From Candidatus Woesearchaeota archaeon (lineage in GTDB: Archaea > Nanobdellota > Nanobdellia > Woesearchaeales > JABGXB01), in the NCBI GenBank assembly GCA_018675975.1, contig JABGXB010000002.1, forward strand, positions 504,098-568,097: a stretch of DNA of 64,000 nucleotides, in the 5' to 3' direction. Under the pieces are notes generated by a model, which ran no database searches, was not told where the DNA came from, and worked only from the letters and a program-made list of their open reading frames with translations. Shown here piece after piece: positions 51,137-59,014 of the stretch (position 1 is the first letter of the stretch; each line of letters opens with the position of its first letter). Both the position numbers and the translations under genes were made by a program.

Positions 51137-53980
51137 ATGAAAAACGTAATGACAAAAATTAAGAAATTTGCAACTGCGGGTGCGTCCATTGCTCTATTAG
51201 GAACGTCAATGGTTAGCGGAGCAGCTGCTGCGAGTTTTGCAGATTATCCTGCACCATTTGTAAAAGATGGAAAATATGATGCAAATGCATTCATTGTTAT
51301 GGGTGCAAATGCGGCAACTATGGATGTTATCGGTGCATTAGATGTAGCGGCTTCCTTACAGGCTGTTTCAGTTGTTGAATCTACAGTACAAGTTTCAAGT
51401 ACATGTGGTGGAGTAACTGGATTAAGTGTATTAGGGGATGCAGCAAAATTTGAAGTATCAAATGACATTTTAGCTTATGGTGAAAGTATAGGCGATGTTC
51501 GATCACAATTTATTGGTAAAATTGGTGGAGTTGGTGATTTATTAGCATTTTCAAACGCTGGTAAAGGTCCTAATGAAGTTAATGGTAATCAATATAGTGA
51601 GTATTTATATTTTGAAGATAAAGAATCAGGTACAGATACATTAGCAAGCACTTCAGTAAGTTTTACTAAAGCAGACGGAGATGACTTCTTTGCACATAAT
51701 GATGAATCAATTGTAGACTCATATTTAGTTTTTAATAAGGGTGGTACTACTATAAATCAATCATTATTTGAATATGAAATGGACTTTTCATCAGACAATA
51801 ACTGGGAAATTCAATTACCTTCAGATTCTTATACTTATGCAGGAGACTCATTAAGTATTTTAGGTACTGATTTTCATGTAGTTAGAGGTGCATTAGATTC
51901 AACTGATACACAATTAACATTAGAATTCTTAGGTACTTTACCTGATGAAGGTTCAATGGTAATTTATGAAACTGATCCTATTGAAGCAGCGGCTTTTGCA
52001 ACTGAATTAGATTTACCTAATAACAGAGTAACAGAACCATTTATGGTTGGTATTTACAATGTTGTAGTTGAATTAAGAGCAGCGACTGCTGGTGCAGATG
52101 CAAGATTTAATGTAAGATACACTAATACTGTTACTGGTGAAGAAAAATATGAAAGCAATATAAAAGTAATAGAAGAAGGTGCAGTTGAAGAAGTTGGTGA
52201 CGAAGAAGAATTATTCATGTATGTTGAAACTATTAATAGTTTAGGAGACAATACTGACGAAATTCACTTTTTAATCGGTTCAGACCATATAAAATTAGTT
52301 GATAACTTTACAGATGATACTTTTGTAGCAGATGTAACTGTTGACGGTGAAAAATTAAATAATGGTTTTGTTAGAATGAAAGGTTCATATGACAGTTCAG
52401 CTGAAGAACTTGCTTTAAGAACAATTGAATATAGATTAAACGATTTAGATGAGGATGTATACGTTCCTTCAGGACATGGTTTAAGAGAATATTTAAGTGA
52501 TGACTGTGATATTGAATCATTAACTTGTGAAAGTGACTCAGATTACCAATACTTTAATGGTATGCTTGGACAAAACTGGGATATTAAATTCTTAGGAATG
52601 ACTGATGCAGCTAGATCAAATATAACATTATCAGGTTCTAGTGGTAATTTAGATTTGAGTATTGTTGAACAAGGTTCAGGTGGAAAGGCTAGTAAATTAC
52701 AAATTATCAATTATGATAAAAATGAACCAATGGCTTGGAGAACTGACGATGGAGATATAGGAACAAGATATGATGGTGATTTTGAAGCATTTATATTTAC
52801 TGAAGGTTGGTATAATACAACAAATGGAAATATAACTAATTCAAATGGAACAACTCCTTGTACTGGTGCAAACCATGAAACTTGTCAATTAATTTATGAT
52901 GAGGATGTATTTGTAGTATCACATAAAGCAACTAGAGATGATGATGTAAGAAGTCATATTTTAGAATATTCTAGTATTGATACAAACAATAACAAAATTA
53001 AGTTTAATTCAGTTGCACAAGGTGTTGGTGATATAGAAAGATCATATGCTTTAGTTGCTGGTAATGACAATGTACTTGGTGAAGCTAAATTAAATGCTCG
53101 TGGTGATGAATATCAATTCTATGTTTTAGATAATGAAACATTAAATTATCCTATTGTTGTTGATTTAAACAAAGATGGTGTTATTGATAATAGTGTATCA
53201 CTTCTTGCAAACGAATTTGGTGTAGTAATGGAATTTGAAAAACAAGCAACGCCTCCATATCTTACAGCATCGTCAGATTCAGAAACAGTTAACTTTAATT
53301 TAAGTTATGTTGATGATATGTTTGAAGATAGAAGTAGTGATCTATTAGTTCAAATCCCAATTACTTTGGTAAACTCATCAGCTGAAACTATGAGTGTTGG
53401 AACTGTTACTGATAATGATGGTAGTGGTACTAATATATTACAAACACAAAAAAATGCTGAAGATACGCAATTTGGTGCAGATATATATGGTACTACATTT
53501 ATGGCTGTTGAATCCGGTGACGGTGACGATGAAACTATAACTATGAGCACACCTTCAACTCAATTATCAGCACAAGTATTTGTTGTATTTGGTGATAGTG
53601 AAGTTTCTAGTGGTGGATCAAGTGGATCTGGTGAAGCTGTAACTCAATCTGTTAACAGAGCAAGATTAGGTATGGGTGTACTTGATAGTGAAGCAAGTAG
53701 ATATGTTGATGCAGACGGTTCATTTAGCAAAAATATGATTGTTATTGGTGGACCTTGTGCAAACAGTGTAGCTGCTGCATTAGAAGGTAAATCTGCTGAC
53801 GCTTGTGGAGAAGGTTATGAACCAGGACAAAGTTTCTTGAAAATGGTTGAGAGTGGAGAAAATGTAGCTGTATTAGCATTTGGTTATGACGCTGCAGGAA
53901 CTTTAAAAGCAACTGATAAACTTTCAGGACTGGCTTCATCCGATAATGCAAACTTAGGAACTGAAGTACCTTTGAACTAA
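51137..53980 (+). CDS. S-layer protein
   Basis: The 947-aa protein has a Sec signal peptide with cleavage near 'SGAAAASF' (about residues 30-33), then the archaeal S-layer N-terminal pattern 'FIVMGANAATMDVIGALDVAASLQ'. The body is acidic and Thr/Ser/Asp-rich, and a C-terminal part repeats the N-terminal style ('MIVIGGPCANSVAAALEG', 'LAFGYDAAGTLKATDKL'), as in Methanococcus-type S-layer proteins. Cysteines are few but paired, possibly made by the DsbA proteins. Codon use is cleaner than neighbours, fitting very high expression. It forms the cell envelope. Confidence 0.9.
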   Translation: MKNVMTKIKKFATAGASIALLGTSMVSGAAAASFADYPAPFVKDGKYDANAFIVMGANAATMDVIGALDVAASLQAVSVVESTVQVSSTCGGVTGLSVLGDAAKFEVSNDILAYGESIGDVRSQFIGKIGGVGDLLAFSNAGKGPNEVNGNQYSEYLYFEDKESGTDTLASTSVSFTKADGDDFFAHNDESIVDSYLVFNKGGTTINQSLFEYEMDFSSDNNWEIQLPSDSYTYAGDSLSILGTDFHVVRGALDSTDTQLTLEFLGTLPDEGSMVIYETDPIEAAAFATELDLPNNRVTEPFMVGIYNVVVELRAATAGADARFNVRYTNTVTGEEKYESNIKVIEEGAVEEVGDEEELFMYVETINSLGDNTDEIHFLIGSDHIKLVDNFTDDTFVADVTVDGEKLNNGFVRMKGSYDSSAEELALRTIEYRLNDLDEDVYVPSGHGLREYLSDDCDIESLTCESDSDYQYFNGMLGQNWDIKFLGMTDAARSNITLSGSSGNLDLSIVEQGSGGKASKLQIINYDKNEPMAWRTDDGDIGTRYDGDFEAFIFTEGWYNTTNGNITNSNGTTPCTGANHETCQLIYDEDVFVVSHKATRDDDVRSHILEYSSIDTNNNKIKFNSVAQGVGDIERSYALVAGNDNVLGEAKLNARGDEYQFYVLDNETLNYPIVVDLNKDGVIDNSVSLLANEFGVVMEFEKQATPPYLTASSDSETVNFNLSYVDDMFEDRSSDLLVQIPITLVNSSAETMSVGTVTDNDGSGTNILQTQKNAEDTQFGADIYGTTFMAVESGDGDDETITMSTPSTQLSAQVFVVFGDSEVSSGGSSGSGEAVTQSVNRARLGMGVLDSEASRYVDADGSFSKNMIVIGGPCANSVAAALEGKSADACGEGYEPGQSFLKMVESGENVAVLAFGYDAAGTLKATDKLSGLASSDNANLGTEVPLN

Positions 53981-54121
53981 ATTAATTAATTTTTTATTTT
54001 TTTTTTACTTTTTTTTAATTATATTATATTTTGATTATATTTCTATTTTTTGACAAATTTGTCACATATTTTGTGTTTTTTATATATTAATGTTTATAAA
54101 TTAATTTTTGTTAAGTTTGTT

Positions 54122-54622
54122 ATGAAAAAAGACTCATTTAAAGTAATATTTACCTTTCTAAGTTTAATTTTATTTTTTAGCTTGGGTTTTATTAGTAGCA
54201 ATATTTTTTTTGATAGTAATAATCAAAATCCATTATCTTTATCTGCTACTATTGAAAAAAATTCTCCATCAAATTGGATTAATGAAGATGATTTAATAAT
54301 TGAAAATGATGGTATAAAAATTAAATTAAATAATTATATAATTGCAAGATTTAGTAATACAAATTCAATGGATCCTTTTTTGGATGAAAATTCAAATGCA
54401 ATTGAAATTAAACCAGAAAATGCGGATCAAATAAATGTGGGAGATATTGTTTCATATAGAGTTAAAGGTGAAGTTAATCCTATAATTCATAGAATAATTG
54501 ACATAGATTATGATGAAAATGGTTATTATTATATTTTAAAAGGAGATAATAATAATTTGCCAGATCCATATAAAGTTAGATTTAATCAAATAGGATATGT
54601 TTTGGTGGGAATTTTATATTAA
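54122..54622 (+). CDS. Signal peptidase I, SipW/ER type
   Basis: The 166-aa protein has one N-terminal membrane segment (about 8-29) and an S26 catalytic domain: Ser82 in 'TNSMDPF', His122 in 'PIIHRII' (the ER/archaeal form uses His instead of Lys) and Asp141 or Asp147 in 'KGDNNNLPDP'. It cleaves signal peptides outside the membrane. I start at ATG 54122 with TATA about 27 nt upstream, not at 54050. It is directly downstream of the S-layer gene, a likely major substrate. Confidence 0.9.
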   Translation: MKKDSFKVIFTFLSLILFFSLGFISSNIFFDSNNQNPLSLSATIEKNSPSNWINEDDLIIENDGIKIKLNNYIIARFSNTNSMDPFLDENSNAIEIKPENADQINVGDIVSYRVKGEVNPIIHRIIDIDYDENGYYYILKGDNNNLPDPYKVRFNQIGYVLVGILY

Positions 54623-54671: not shown

Positions 54672-55436
54672 ATGAAATCTAAATTTTATTTGTTTTTAGC
54701 TATTATTTTATTATTTGGTGTATTTGTCTCAGCACAAAATAATTTGTTGAATACTACTGTTTATATGCCTTCAGATGAATATTTTAGTGAAAGTAAATCT
54801 GGAACTTATTTAACTTGGAATAAAATTCATTATATTTATTTAAAAAATAATAATTCGGCTAATTTATTATCAAAAAAAATTAATTTTTGTATGGATTTAT
54901 TTTTTAATTCAAATTTAAAATATGAACGGGTGGAAGGGGATTTTTGTAATAGAATTTATTTTTTTAAACCTCAAAAATCTATGGTTTTTTATTATAATTT
55001 TTCATTAATTTATATTATTTTATTAATTGGGATTTATTTTGTTTATAGAAAGTATTATCGTGGTAAAATTATTTTAGAAAAAAAAATTAAATTTCTTGAA
55101 AAGTCATTTCATGGTATAAAAAAAATTAGAGTTGAAATTTTAATATCCAATAAAACTAAAAATAATTTTTCTAATGTTAGAATAAGTGATTTAATTCCAA
55201 ATATTTTAGATATTTCTGAAAGTGGTTTAGGTACTATTAAACCGGAAATAGTTAATTCTATTTCTGGTAAAGAATTAATATTTGATGTGGGTACTGTTGA
55301 AGTTGGTGAAAGGTTAATGGTTTATTATGATTTAAAAAGTAAAATTGATTTGAGTGAAGACTTTACTTTAGAGGATACATATTTAATATATGATACTTAT
55401 TTTGGTCAAAAAAGAATAAAAATTAACATTTTGTAA
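54672..55436 (+). CDS. Secreted/membrane protein with DUF11-like domain
   Basis: The 254-aa protein has a signal peptide (about 1-21, 'SAQNN'), a short outer region, one membrane segment (about 108-126) and then a strand-rich domain ('VEILISNKTKNNFSNVRISDLIPN' to 'FDVGTVEVGERLMVYYDL') like DUF11/CARDB-type conserved repeats. The topology would put the beta domain inside the cell unless the first segment is uncleaved. Function is unknown. It is next to signal peptidase; the end overlaps the convergent RelA/SpoT gene by 14 nt. Confidence 0.65.
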   Translation: MKSKFYLFLAIILLFGVFVSAQNNLLNTTVYMPSDEYFSESKSGTYLTWNKIHYIYLKNNNSANLLSKKINFCMDLFFNSNLKYERVEGDFCNRIYFFKPQKSMVFYYNFSLIYIILLIGIYFVYRKYYRGKIILEKKIKFLEKSFHGIKKIRVEILISNKTKNNFSNVRISDLIPNILDISESGLGTIKPEIVNSISGKELIFDVGTVEVGERLMVYYDLKSKIDLSEDFTLEDTYLIYDTYFGQKRIKINIL

Positions 55437-57330
55437 TCATTATTTTTTTAACTGATTTTATTTTTTTAATTGCATTTAAAATATTATTTATATGTTCTAA
55501 ATTTTCAACTTCAATTTTAAATGATAATGATACTTTTTCTTTATCTATAATTTTTGCATTTGCACTATTAATTTTATTTGTAAGTCTACTTATTGTATTT
55601 AGTAAATCTACCATTAGTCCTTTTCTTTCAGAACAACTGATTTTTAATTCTATTTCACCTTTGGTATTTTCTTGCCAGTGTGATTTTAGAATTCTATCTT
55701 TTCTAATATTTTGTTTTTTTAATTTTTCACAATTTTTATTATGTATATTAATTGTAAATCCATTAATATTTATTCCAATAATTTCATCTCCTGGCATTGG
55801 ATTACAACATTTTGCAAATTTAATATTATAGTCTTGCATTTTATTTACATAAATTAATTTGGAATTTATTTTTTCTTCTATTTTATTTATGCTCTTGGAA
55901 TATTTTGGATGTGGTATTTGACTTACTTCATTTAATGCTTTTCTTATTTTAGATCTAGCTTTATGTGTTTTTGCAAATTTTAACCACTCTCGGCTTGGCA
56001 TATGATTTTTTTGGGTTATGATTTCTACTAAGTCCCCATTACTTAATTCACTTCTTAATGTTTTATACTTGCCATTAATTCTTACACCAATAGATTTATC
56101 TCCTATATTACTATGTATTGCATATGCAAAATCAATTGCAGTTGCATTTTTTGGTAAATTAATAACTTTTCCGGCTGGAGTTATACAATATATTTTTTCA
56201 GAAAAAAATTCAAATTTTACAATATCAACAATATCTGTTTCTATATTATTATCATTATTAATTATTTCTTTTATCCATGACATTTTTTTATCATATTTTT
56301 CATTTCCTTCAAATCCTTTGTATATGAAATGTGCTGCAATTCCTTCTTCTGCTTGTTTGTCCATGTCACCAGTTCTAATTTGTATTTCTAATACATTATG
56401 ATTCTCATCGAATACAGTTGTATGTATTGATCTGTAATTATTTTCTTTTGGGCTTGCAATATAATCTTTTAATCTATTTAATATTGGTTTATATGTAGTG
56501 TGAATCAATCTTAAAACTTCATAACAATCTTTTATGTTTTCAACAATTATTCTAAATGCTAATAAATCATTAATTTCTTCTAATTTTTTTGTTGAAGATT
56601 TTTTATATATTGAATAAATATTTTTTGGTCGTCCAAGCATTTGATATTTTATTTTTTCTTTTTCAATTAAGCTAATTAATTTTTTTTTTGTATTATCAAT
56701 TATTATTTCTCTTTCTTTCTTTTTTTGTGGCAGAAATTCTTTTATTTTGTAAAATGCATCTGGATCTAAATGTTTTAAACTTAAATCTTCTAATTCACTT
56801 TTTATTTTTCCAAGACCTAATCTATTTGCAATTGGTGCATATATTTCTAATGTTAGTTTTGCAATTTCTTTTTGTTGTTTTTTATCTAATGAACCTAATG
56901 TTCTCATATTGTCTAGCTTATCTGCTAATTTGATGAAAATAACTCTAATATCTTTAGAAGAAGAAAGAATCATTTTTCTTAACTCTTCTGCAAAATCTAA
57001 ACTTACAATTGATTTATTAATTAAATTTATTTTATTTATTTCATTTTGTAAATTAAATATTGATTCTCCAAATTTTTCTTTAATTTCTTTTTCTTTACTT
57101 TTATCAATTAAACAAATTCCGTGTAATAATGATACAATTATACTATCATTATCCATTTTATTTTCTGCACAAGTTTTTGCAACTCTATATGGATGATTGA
57201 AATAATTCTCTCCAGATATTCTTTTTTCATTTTCAAAGAATTTTTTAGAAAATTCATATGCTTTTTGAACTAAGTCTATGTTTTTTTTATCTTCTAATAG
57301 TTCTTTTAGTTCTTCAAATTGTTTATCCAT
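55423..57330 (-). CDS. Long RelA/SpoT homologue, hydrolase motif lost
   Basis: The 635-aa protein has all parts of a long RSH: a HD-type domain (about 20-190), synthetase domain (about 215-340), TGS (about 378-440), helical linker, CC/zinc-finger-like segment (about 505-520, 'FAKCCNPMPGDE') and ACT (about 560-632). Synthetase residues are intact (D255, R260, K288, D289, Y299, E315, Q317). In the hydrolase domain the first His (H46), D137 and N141 remain, but the HD..ED motif reads H70-G71..L74-I75. It should make but not degrade (p)ppGpp. Bacterial origin is likely. A TATA-like box lies about 25 nt before the ATG. Confidence 0.92.
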   Translation of the reverse strand: MDKQFEELKELLEDKKNIDLVQKAYEFSKKFFENEKRISGENYFNHPYRVAKTCAENKMDNDSIIVSLLHGICLIDKSKEKEIKEKFGESIFNLQNEINKINLINKSIVSLDFAEELRKMILSSSKDIRVIFIKLADKLDNMRTLGSLDKKQQKEIAKLTLEIYAPIANRLGLGKIKSELEDLSLKHLDPDAFYKIKEFLPQKKKEREIIIDNTKKKLISLIEKEKIKYQMLGRPKNIYSIYKKSSTKKLEEINDLLAFRIIVENIKDCYEVLRLIHTTYKPILNRLKDYIASPKENNYRSIHTTVFDENHNVLEIQIRTGDMDKQAEEGIAAHFIYKGFEGNEKYDKKMSWIKEIINNDNNIETDIVDIVKFEFFSEKIYCITPAGKVINLPKNATAIDFAYAIHSNIGDKSIGVRINGKYKTLRSELSNGDLVEIITQKNHMPSREWLKFAKTHKARSKIRKALNEVSQIPHPKYSKSINKIEEKINSKLIYVNKMQDYNIKFAKCCNPMPGDEIIGININGFTINIHNKNCEKLKKQNIRKDRILKSHWQENTKGEIELKISCSERKGLMVDLLNTISRLTNKINSANAKIIDKEKVSLSFKIEVENLEHINNILNAIKKIKSVKKIMITKC

Positions 57331-57361
57331 AATATAAGAATTATATTGTATATTTTAAATT

Positions 57362-57838
57362 TTACTGAGCTAGGTTCTTTAAGCTATTTTTAAGAATTTG
57401 ATTTTTTTTAATATTATTTTTATTGAATAATTGTTTACATTCGTCATATGTAACCCATTTATAATTTAAAATTTCGTCTTCTTTTGGTATTAAATTACCA
57501 TTTCCTAAATATTTTCCAGATACAAAAAAAAATGCTTTTCCTTTAGAATATCCTCTGCCTCTGTTATTTGTGAAATTTATATCCAATTTATCTTCATATA
57601 CTTGAGTATTTGTAATTTTATATTCATTATAATTTACATTTAATTCTTCTTTTAACTCTCTTTTTATGGTTTCAGATATCTTTTCGGATTTTTTAATTCC
57701 ACCTTGGGGGAAATACCATGATTTTTTATCTCTTGTCGAATTTACAATTAAAATTTTATTATTTTTATTTATCAATATTACAGAAACTGTGGGTCTATAT
57801 TCTCCTAATTTTTTTAAATTATCTATTCTATTATACAT
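57362..57838 (-). CDS. Nudix hydrolase, RppH-like
   Basis: The protein (158 aa from ATG 57838; TTG 57844 is alternative) has a complete Nudix box, G-X5-E-X7-REL-X-EE, in 'GGIKKSEKISETIKRELKEEL'-type order starting near residue 47, preceded by 'SWYFPQGG' as in RppH/diadenosine polyphosphatases. Substrates could be mRNA 5' ends, dinucleoside polyphosphates or (p)ppGpp. It lies directly upstream of the RSH gene on the same strand (31 nt apart). A TATA-like element (57862-57874) is about 30 nt before the ATG. Confidence 0.87.
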   Translation of the reverse strand: MYNRIDNLKKLGEYRPTVSVILINKNNKILIVNSTRDKKSWYFPQGGIKKSEKISETIKRELKEELNVNYNEYKITNTQVYEDKLDINFTNNRGRGYSKGKAFFFVSGKYLGNGNLIPKEDEILNYKWVTYDECKQLFNKNNIKKNQILKNSLKNLAQ

Positions 57839-57943: not shown

Positions 57944-59014
57944 ATGGGGAGGTTTAATAATTTTTTAAGTAGTGATGAAACGGTTTTTAAAAATCATGTT
58001 GCGCTAGATTATGATTTTGTTCCCAAGGTTATTAAATTTAGAGAATCTGAACAGCAATCTATTGCAAATTGCGTTAAACCTATGTTGCATGGTAGGAGTG
58101 GAAGGAATTTAATTATAAGTGGTACTCCTGGTATTGGTAAAACTGTAGCTGTAAAAAAAATATTTGAAGAAATTGAAGAAGATACTGATCAAATAATTCC
58201 AATTTATGTGAATTGTTGGAAAGTTAATACAACTTATAAAATTATGATTGAAATTTGTCATCAATTGGGATATCGTTTTACTCAAAATAAAAAAACAACT
58301 GAATTAATACAAATTGCAATAAATTTAATGAATAAATCTAGTATTGTTTTTGCTTTTGATGAAATTGATAAAGCAGAAGATTTTGATTTTTTGTATATTA
58401 TTTTAGAAAGTGTCTATAGGCGAACTATGTTTTTACTTACAAATTATTCTGATTGGATAACAAGTTTAGATATGAGAATTCGAAGCAGATTGGTTGCAGA
58501 AAGTTTAAATTTTAAATCATATTCAAAACAAGAAGTTAATGATATATTAAAAGAAAGAGTTGATTTAGGTTTTTATGATGGTGTATATAATTCTGATTCA
58601 TTTGAGTTTGTAGTTGATAGAGCATTTTTATTTAAAGATATTAGAACTGGTTTATATTTATTAAAAGAAAGTGCAAATTGTGCCGAAGACAGATCTTCTC
58701 GTATTGTAGAATTGGATGATTCTAAAAAAGCTCTTGATAAAATGGATGATTTTAAAACAAAAAAAATAAATAATTTAAATGATGATTTAAAGATGGTATT
58801 AGAATTAGTTAAAGACAATACTGGAAAAAAAATTGGTGAAGTTTTTGATATTGGTATTAAACGTGGTTTGAAAATTAGTTATAAAACATTTCAAAGACGT
58901 ATTAAAAAATTAACTGATAGTGGATTTATTAAAAGTGAAATAATTTATGGTGGTAGTGAAGGCAATAGTAGTTTTTTATATTATAATAATCAACCAACAT
59001 TAGATGATTTTTAA
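57944..59014 (+). CDS. Orc1/Cdc6-like replication initiator ATPase
   Basis: The 356-aa AAA+ protein has Walker A 'GTPGIGKT' (60-67), Walker B 'FAFDEID' (136-142), a sensor/arginine region ('DMRIRSRL') and a C-terminal winged helix (about 270-340). The opening 'ALDYDFVPKVIKFRESEQQ' matches Orc1/Cdc6, which binds origins and loads MCM. The promoter is leaderless: TATA (57911-57924) about 26 nt before the ATG. Origins often lie beside this gene in archaea, but I saw no clear origin-box repeats in the 105-nt gap. Confidence 0.88.
   Translation: MGRFNNFLSSDETVFKNHVALDYDFVPKVIKFRESEQQSIANCVKPMLHGRSGRNLIISGTPGIGKTVAVKKIFEEIEEDTDQIIPIYVNCWKVNTTYKIMIEICHQLGYRFTQNKKTTELIQIAINLMNKSSIVFAFDEIDKAEDFDFLYIILESVYRRTMFLLTNYSDWITSLDMRIRSRLVAESLNFKSYSKQEVNDILKERVDLGFYDGVYNSDSFEFVVDRAFLFKDIRTGLYLLKESANCAEDRSSRIVELDDSKKALDKMDDFKTKKINNLNDDLKMVLELVKDNTGKKIGEVFDIGIKRGLKISYKTFQRRIKKLTDSGFIKSEIIYGGSEGNSSFLYYNNQPTLDDF

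Follow-up and report, generated by a model that had tools for sequence, protein, structure and literature searches.

An archaeal long RelA/SpoT homologue that has lost the hydrolase motif and the AH domain

The DNA considered here, hereafter the window, is a stretch of 64,000 nucleotides from a Candidatus Woesearchaeota archaeon (assembly GCA_018675975.1, contig JABGXB010000002.1, positions 504,098 to 568,097). It encodes a complete long RelA/SpoT homologue (RSH) of 635 amino acids in which the catalytic motif of the (p)ppGpp hydrolase domain is lost, the synthetase and ribosome-sensing residues are intact, and the AH helical domain of bacterial long RSHs is missing. The protein groups with archaeal RSHs, and the genome holds no second HD-type hydrolase. 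Judged from these residues and domains, the gene is probably a synthesis-only ([hS]) long RSH from an archaeal lineage (DPANN-type) of ribosome-associated Rel, which would sense deacylated tRNA and make alarmone without the help of an AH domain, the alarmone being removed by a route other than an RSH.

Table 1. Features of the RSH locus (positions in the window; residues are those of the RSH)
Feature	Position	Strand	Basis
Long RSH, 635 aa: (pseudo)HD - synthetase - TGS - (AH missing) - ZFD/RIS - ACT	55423..57330	-	TIGR00691, Pfam, AlphaFold
HD_4 domain, residues 24-173, hydrolase-dead	56812..57261	-	Pfam and alignment
HGICLI, residues 70-75, replacing catalytic HDxxED	57106..57123	-	Alignment
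(p)ppGpp synthetase domain (RelA_SpoT), residues 233-339, catalytic residues complete, RLKD variant of RXKD	56314..56634	-	Pfam and alignment
TGS domain, residues 380-439, CCA-contacting histidine H406	56014..56193	-	Pfam and alignment
Short linker, about residues 464-507, at the place of the bacterial AH helical domain	55810..55941	-	Spacer lengths, AlphaFold, Pfam
Zinc-finger (ZFD/RIS/CC) domain, about residues 502-539: C508, C509, H530, C534	55714..55827	-	Alignment
ACT/RRM domain (ACT_4), residues 559-630	55441..55656	-	Pfam
RppH-like Nudix hydrolase, 158 aa from ATG (TTG start 57844)	57362..57838	-	ORF list, Pfam, NCBIfam
Orc1/Cdc6-type replication protein, divergent from the RSH	57944..59014	+	Library match, neighbourhood comparison

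The initial annotation described a complete archaeal long RSH with intact synthetase residues, and this description holds. The protein matches TIGR00691 (spoT_relA) with 586.8 bits, above the cut-off of 499.2, and four Pfam domains (Table 1). The best match in a sequence search of the PDB is B. subtilis Rel (E 2e-113), followed by other bacterial Rel and RelA proteins, and the best PDB matches of the AlphaFold model (12 sequences; mean pLDDT 78.6, pTM 0.61) are E. coli RelA, B. subtilis Rel and A. baumannii SpoT. The domains listed earlier (HD, synthetase, TGS, CC and ACT) are all there, CC/ZFD and ACT included, but little is left of the AH domain that bacterial RSHs have between TGS and CC. 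Every synthetase residue is kept in the alignment (R234, K236, S240, D255, R260, R286-L-K-D289, Y299, H303, E315, Q317 and R319). The motif at residues 286-289 is RLKD and so is not the EXDD of RelA[hS].

Alignment with the catalytic residues of bacterial Rel confirms the reported replacement of HD..ED by HG..LI: residues 70-75 read HGICLI in place of HDVVED. G71, L74 and I75 stand where the catalytic D, E and D would be, and the pocket residues R37, H46, H70, D137 and N141 are kept. Since the window protein lacks the glutamate and both aspartates, which we take to be E81, D78 and D82 in RelSeq numbering, it would have lost hydrolysis while retaining the HD fold. In A. baumannii SpoT, substitution of E82, D83, R45 or N147 abolishes hydrolysis, E82 or D83 alone being sufficient (PMC9974481). 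The intact HDxxED of bifunctional Rel[HS] is absent, and the combination of an inactive hydrolase motif with intact synthetase residues is that of RelA[hS], which supports the earlier reading of the protein as synthesis-only. A sequence error at the motif, raised at the outset as a possible objection, is very unlikely, since of about 116 aligned archaeal RSHs 38 lack the motif. Its loss is a real feature and no isolated case.

Long RSHs had been taken to be uncommon in archaea, which fails for this group. They are encoded in 99 of the 236 sampled genomes of the phylum and in about 66 of 193 genomes of the same order, where identity to the window RSH is 34-44%. A 2021 report, in its passage on RelA/SpoT in DPANN, gives 41.7% of Woesearchaeota and 21.3% of Pacearchaeota and predicts a bacterial origin (PMC8407392). 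In the tree built without HD columns, the window RSH lies among the archaeal RSHs (support 99/95), apart from five bacterial RSHs (95/72). The 38 hydrolase-dead proteins comprise the window RSH, all 22 members of family f62 (leaving out the doubtful second contig of genome G209), those of G140, G173, G053, G090 and, partly, G230, four of c90, and three each of clades c95 and c106. Their synthetase residues are essentially invariant (38/38). In the trees without HD columns, the dead RSHs of G053 and G090 each branch with intact relatives (support 100/100 and 100/96), and a topology that unites every dead member of the large clade, as one loss would require, is rejected by the AU (approximately unbiased) test (p = 0.0245). 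The hydrolase has therefore been lost independently at least four times. Within f62 the HD domain has diverged more quickly than the other parts of the protein (mean pairwise identity 0.47 for HD, 0.59 for the synthetase and 0.60 for the C-terminal part), which is not so in intact relatives (0.53, 0.56 and 0.45, respectively). The association of RXKD with bifunctional and of EXDD with synthesis-only enzymes (PMC3153485) is also broken in archaea: x-x-K-D occurs in nearly all dead RSHs, and ExDD in 11 intact ones.

The gene order around the dead RSH is conserved in most f62 genomes, with an enolase-like gene on one side and a glyceraldehyde-3-phosphate dehydrogenase-like gene on the other (gene clusters c4 and c3; e.g. 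loci L185, L179 and L192), both names being provisional assignments from sequence. G209 (L179, L180) has a dead RSH plus an intact RSH of another clade on a contig with 38% GC versus 44.5%. A RelA/SpoT division of labour was considered for this genome and rejected, given the GC of the second contig and the grouping of its RSH elsewhere; the pair is probably a binning error. In one strain of Parabacteroides distasonis, the second long RSH (L152) also lacks the hydrolase motif, while its paralogue (L149) is intact.

The spacer between the TGS domain and the ZFD is 46 residues long in the window RSH versus 102-137 in bacterial long RSHs. Counted between the TGS end and the cysteines of the ZFD, it is 37-54 residues in 115 of 115 assessable archaeal RSHs (loci L033-L097 and L177-L226) versus 104-137 in 10 bacterial ones. 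Moreover, matches above the cut-off of the Pfam model RelA_AH_RIS (PF19296) occur in 10 of the 14 control genomes versus 2 of the 236 phylum genomes, 99 of which have a long RSH; among the matches listed, the window's included, the match starts near profile position 70. Complete long RSHs on IMG/VR contigs have spacers of 102-119 residues, with L257 as the sole short exception. This viral-catalogued contig (IMGVR_UViG_3300028591_008352) encodes a 625-aa RSH with an intact HD motif, a spacer of apparently 18 aa and an altered cysteine pair. The bacterial comparison set was drawn from outside the Patescibacteria (CPR), so that a donor from this group whose AH is short is conceivable. No prior description of AH loss in archaeal RSHs was found in the open (non-subscription) papers searched.

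The AH domain contacts the A/R tRNA in E. coli RelA (PMC4974054), and the TGS histidine contacts the CCA end of the tRNA (PMC7058999). This histidine and the C, C, H and C of the ZFD are conserved in all 38 dead and nearly all intact archaeal RSHs; the window protein has them as H406, C508, C509, H530 and C534, as expected of a ribosome-activated factor. Since these residues are kept and AH is missing, archaeal RSHs most likely still read starved ribosomes, but in a different manner. The absence of AH in every archaeal member examined predicts a different reading of A-site tRNA on the archaeal ribosome.

As a synthesis-only enzyme, the window RSH would most likely sense deacylated tRNA at the ribosome via TGS and ZFD, and would use ATP and GTP or GDP to make (p)ppGpp or a similar nucleotide. 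It would engage the ribosome without the helical domain that lies against A-site tRNA in bacterial long RSHs, so that its mode of engagement would have to differ from theirs. The alarmone could then be removed by one of the nine Nudix enzymes of the genome, by a phosphatase, or by dilution. Several points weigh against this proposal. Bacteria nearly always balance an alarmone synthetase with a hydrolase, as synthesis left unchecked is toxic to them, and a synthetase without a known hydrolase would be toxic there. Archaeal and eukaryotic RSHs already break this pairing rule, according to Atkinson et al. (PMC3153485). No (p)ppGpp has been reported from any archaeon tested (PMC8646023); these archaea include volcanii and S. 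acidocaldarius, neither of which is thought to encode an RSH. The window RSH is, in addition, the sole member of family f1 in the set and sits on a long branch, and topology tests accept c90, f59 and f62 alike as its sister. Gene order favours kinship with f59/f11, because an Orc1/Cdc6 gene near a divergent RSH is common to them (G146, G115 and G010, all without Nudix).

A rather unlikely alternative is that the altered HD pocket has not simply decayed but senses alarmones or nucleotides and regulates the synthetase accordingly. In 23 dead sequences (f62 plus G140), R44, H53 and N148 are 100% conserved while D78, E81, D82 and D144 drift (RelSeq numbering). R45 of SpoT stacks the guanine (PMC9974481), and the five pocket residues retained in the window RSH fit the same idea. 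The conserved R44, H53 and N148 of f62 may reflect retained nucleotide binding. However, their conservation may be structural, and clades c95 and c106 have lost pocket residues too while keeping the synthetase.

The initial annotation proposed that the RSH forms a compact stringent-response pair with the adjacent Nudix gene. This gene does share the strand of the RSH, whose start lies 31 bp further downstream, and the two are possibly co-transcribed. The Nudix box GGIKKSEKISETIKRELKEELN has an intact REL-x-EE and N for the last G. The protein starts in an RppH-like manner (YRP...FPQGG) and scores 50.9 bits with the RppH model versus an equivalog cut-off of 118 bits. E. coli RppH hydrolyses ppGpp and pppGpp slowly (PMC7144940). 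That the neighbour is a dedicated (p)ppGpp hydrolase in an operon with a synthesis-only RSH is nevertheless quite unlikely. A search of the relatives for the pair found a Nudix gene adjoining the RSH in 3 of about 116 loci: that of the window genome (G000), that of G236, whose RSH is dead and has the Nudix gene 42 bp downstream, and that of G027, whose HD domain is intact. The Nudix proteins of the latter two are 22-27% identical to that of the window. Such adjacency on either strand fits chance (about 1.1 expected, P of at least 3 about 0.10); on the same strand it is slightly above chance (about 0.55 expected, P about 0.02), by a criterion chosen post hoc. The Nudix gene is absent from the nearest homologous neighbourhoods, those of the f59 and f11 genomes that keep the Orc1/Cdc6-RSH arrangement. 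Genomes with dead and with intact RSHs do not differ in their mean Nudix count (5.7 versus 6.3, p = 0.46), and the dead genomes G061, G195, G227 and G230 (92-100% complete) have no Nudix match. Because adjacency is rare, the neighbourhoods lack the gene, the counts are equal and four dead genomes are Nudix-free, the pair is not a conserved module.

Among the 193 relatives searched, the best homologues of the window Nudix protein are a paralogue in its own genome (38% identity) and a gene of G040, a genome without a long RSH (37%). A conserved (p)ppGpp-hydrolysing partnership was rejected on neighbourhood, homologue search and genome counts; a role of the window Nudix protein in this one organism is possible. 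The paralogue is a second RppH-like gene, at L227:6653-7141 on contig 3 of G000.

Nor did a further (p)ppGpp hydrolase of HD or Ppx/GppA type, for which the initial annotation had suggested searching related genomes, emerge in the window genome. The only HD_4 and the only RelA_SpoT domain in G000 are those of the RSH itself, there is no companion SpoT or small alarmone hydrolase of the kind that accompanies RelA[hS], and Ppx/GppA is missing from all 30 genomes searched, G000 included. A stand-alone HD hydrolase is present in about 7 of the 38 dead genomes, namely G303, G308 and G261 (HD..EN), G309 (HD..EK), and G293, G117 and G209 (HD..ED); the remainder have no clear one. Such a protein was rejected as a general replacement on these numbers and on its absence from the window genome. 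G061, G195 and G227 have neither a Nudix protein nor a second HD_4 domain above cut-off. In all three c106 genomes (L229, L230 and L231, i.e. G303, G308 and G261), the HD pocket of the RSH is fully decayed and the stand-alone HD_4 protein reads HDTLEN.

It is very unlikely that the RSH has given up alarmone synthesis and persists as a ribosome-binding factor. The failure to report (p)ppGpp from any archaeon tested (PMC8646023) and the lack of a hydrolase to balance synthesis would fit such a role, but the synthetase residues hardly vary across the dead members, and in f62 the synthetase is the better conserved of the two catalytic domains.

Bacterial contamination or an assembly error, for which the bacterial character of long RSHs in general might speak, has next to no probability: the genome (1.03 Mb in 3 contigs, 100% complete, 0.16% contamination) carries the gene on a 571-kb contig beside S-layer, archaeal signal peptidase and Orc1/Cdc6 genes, the Orc1-RSH neighbourhood is common to other genomes of the order, the AH-less architecture is that of all archaeal members, and the motif change consists of several substitutions with no frameshift. 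The archaeal context assumed at first is thus borne out by contig, neighbours and tree. A scan of the genome_contigs collection returned one distant fragment. Elsewhere in the window, a large S-layer-like protein (S_layer_C; 51137-53980) is followed by a short protein that matches archaeal signal peptidase I (54050-54622).

Across the archaeal set, the synthetase and ribosome-sensing residues are strongly constrained, and the hydrolase was dropped repeatedly, mostly with no replacement seen. How such cells switch the alarm off is the question raised by these losses, and the hydrolase-dead genomes offer a tractable set in which to seek a new clearing route. The question whether archaea make (p)ppGpp is now tied to a concrete protein. 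More tentatively, many DPANN archaea might have a one-way stringent response, with AH-less reading of the ribosome, repeated loss of hydrolysis, a pocket acting as sensor in some clades, and clearing by neither HD, Nudix nor Ppx/GppA enzymes; this broader picture is possible but doubtful.

The DPANN RelA/SpoT genes reported previously are the same group of genes, and their presence was already known; the passage that describes them is silent on hydrolase loss, AH loss and alarmone clearing (PMC8407392). What is new here is an archaeal, AH-less, hydrolase-dead long RSH. Nudix hydrolases of the RppH and Ndx8 type can cleave (p)ppGpp. The window neighbour, whose (p)ppGpp activity is putative, matches RppH models below cut-off, and its linkage to the RSH is not conserved. 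Bifunctional Rel[HS] (B. subtilis Rel, 6yxa; RelSeq, 1vj7) resembles the window RSH in domain order and in its RXKD-type motif, and provides the best PDB sequence match. Unlike Rel[HS], the window protein is archaeal and has lost both the hydrolase motif and the AH helical domain. E. coli RelA[hS] shares the predicted synthesis-only activity with a pseudo-hydrolase domain, together with the conserved TGS histidine and ZFD cysteines. However, RelA has EXDD, a decayed HD pocket and an AH domain and works with SpoT, whereas the window RSH has RLKD, a partly kept pocket, no AH and no SpoT partner. The two are not sisters in the tree: RelA groups with the bacterial enzymes and the window RSH with those of archaea.

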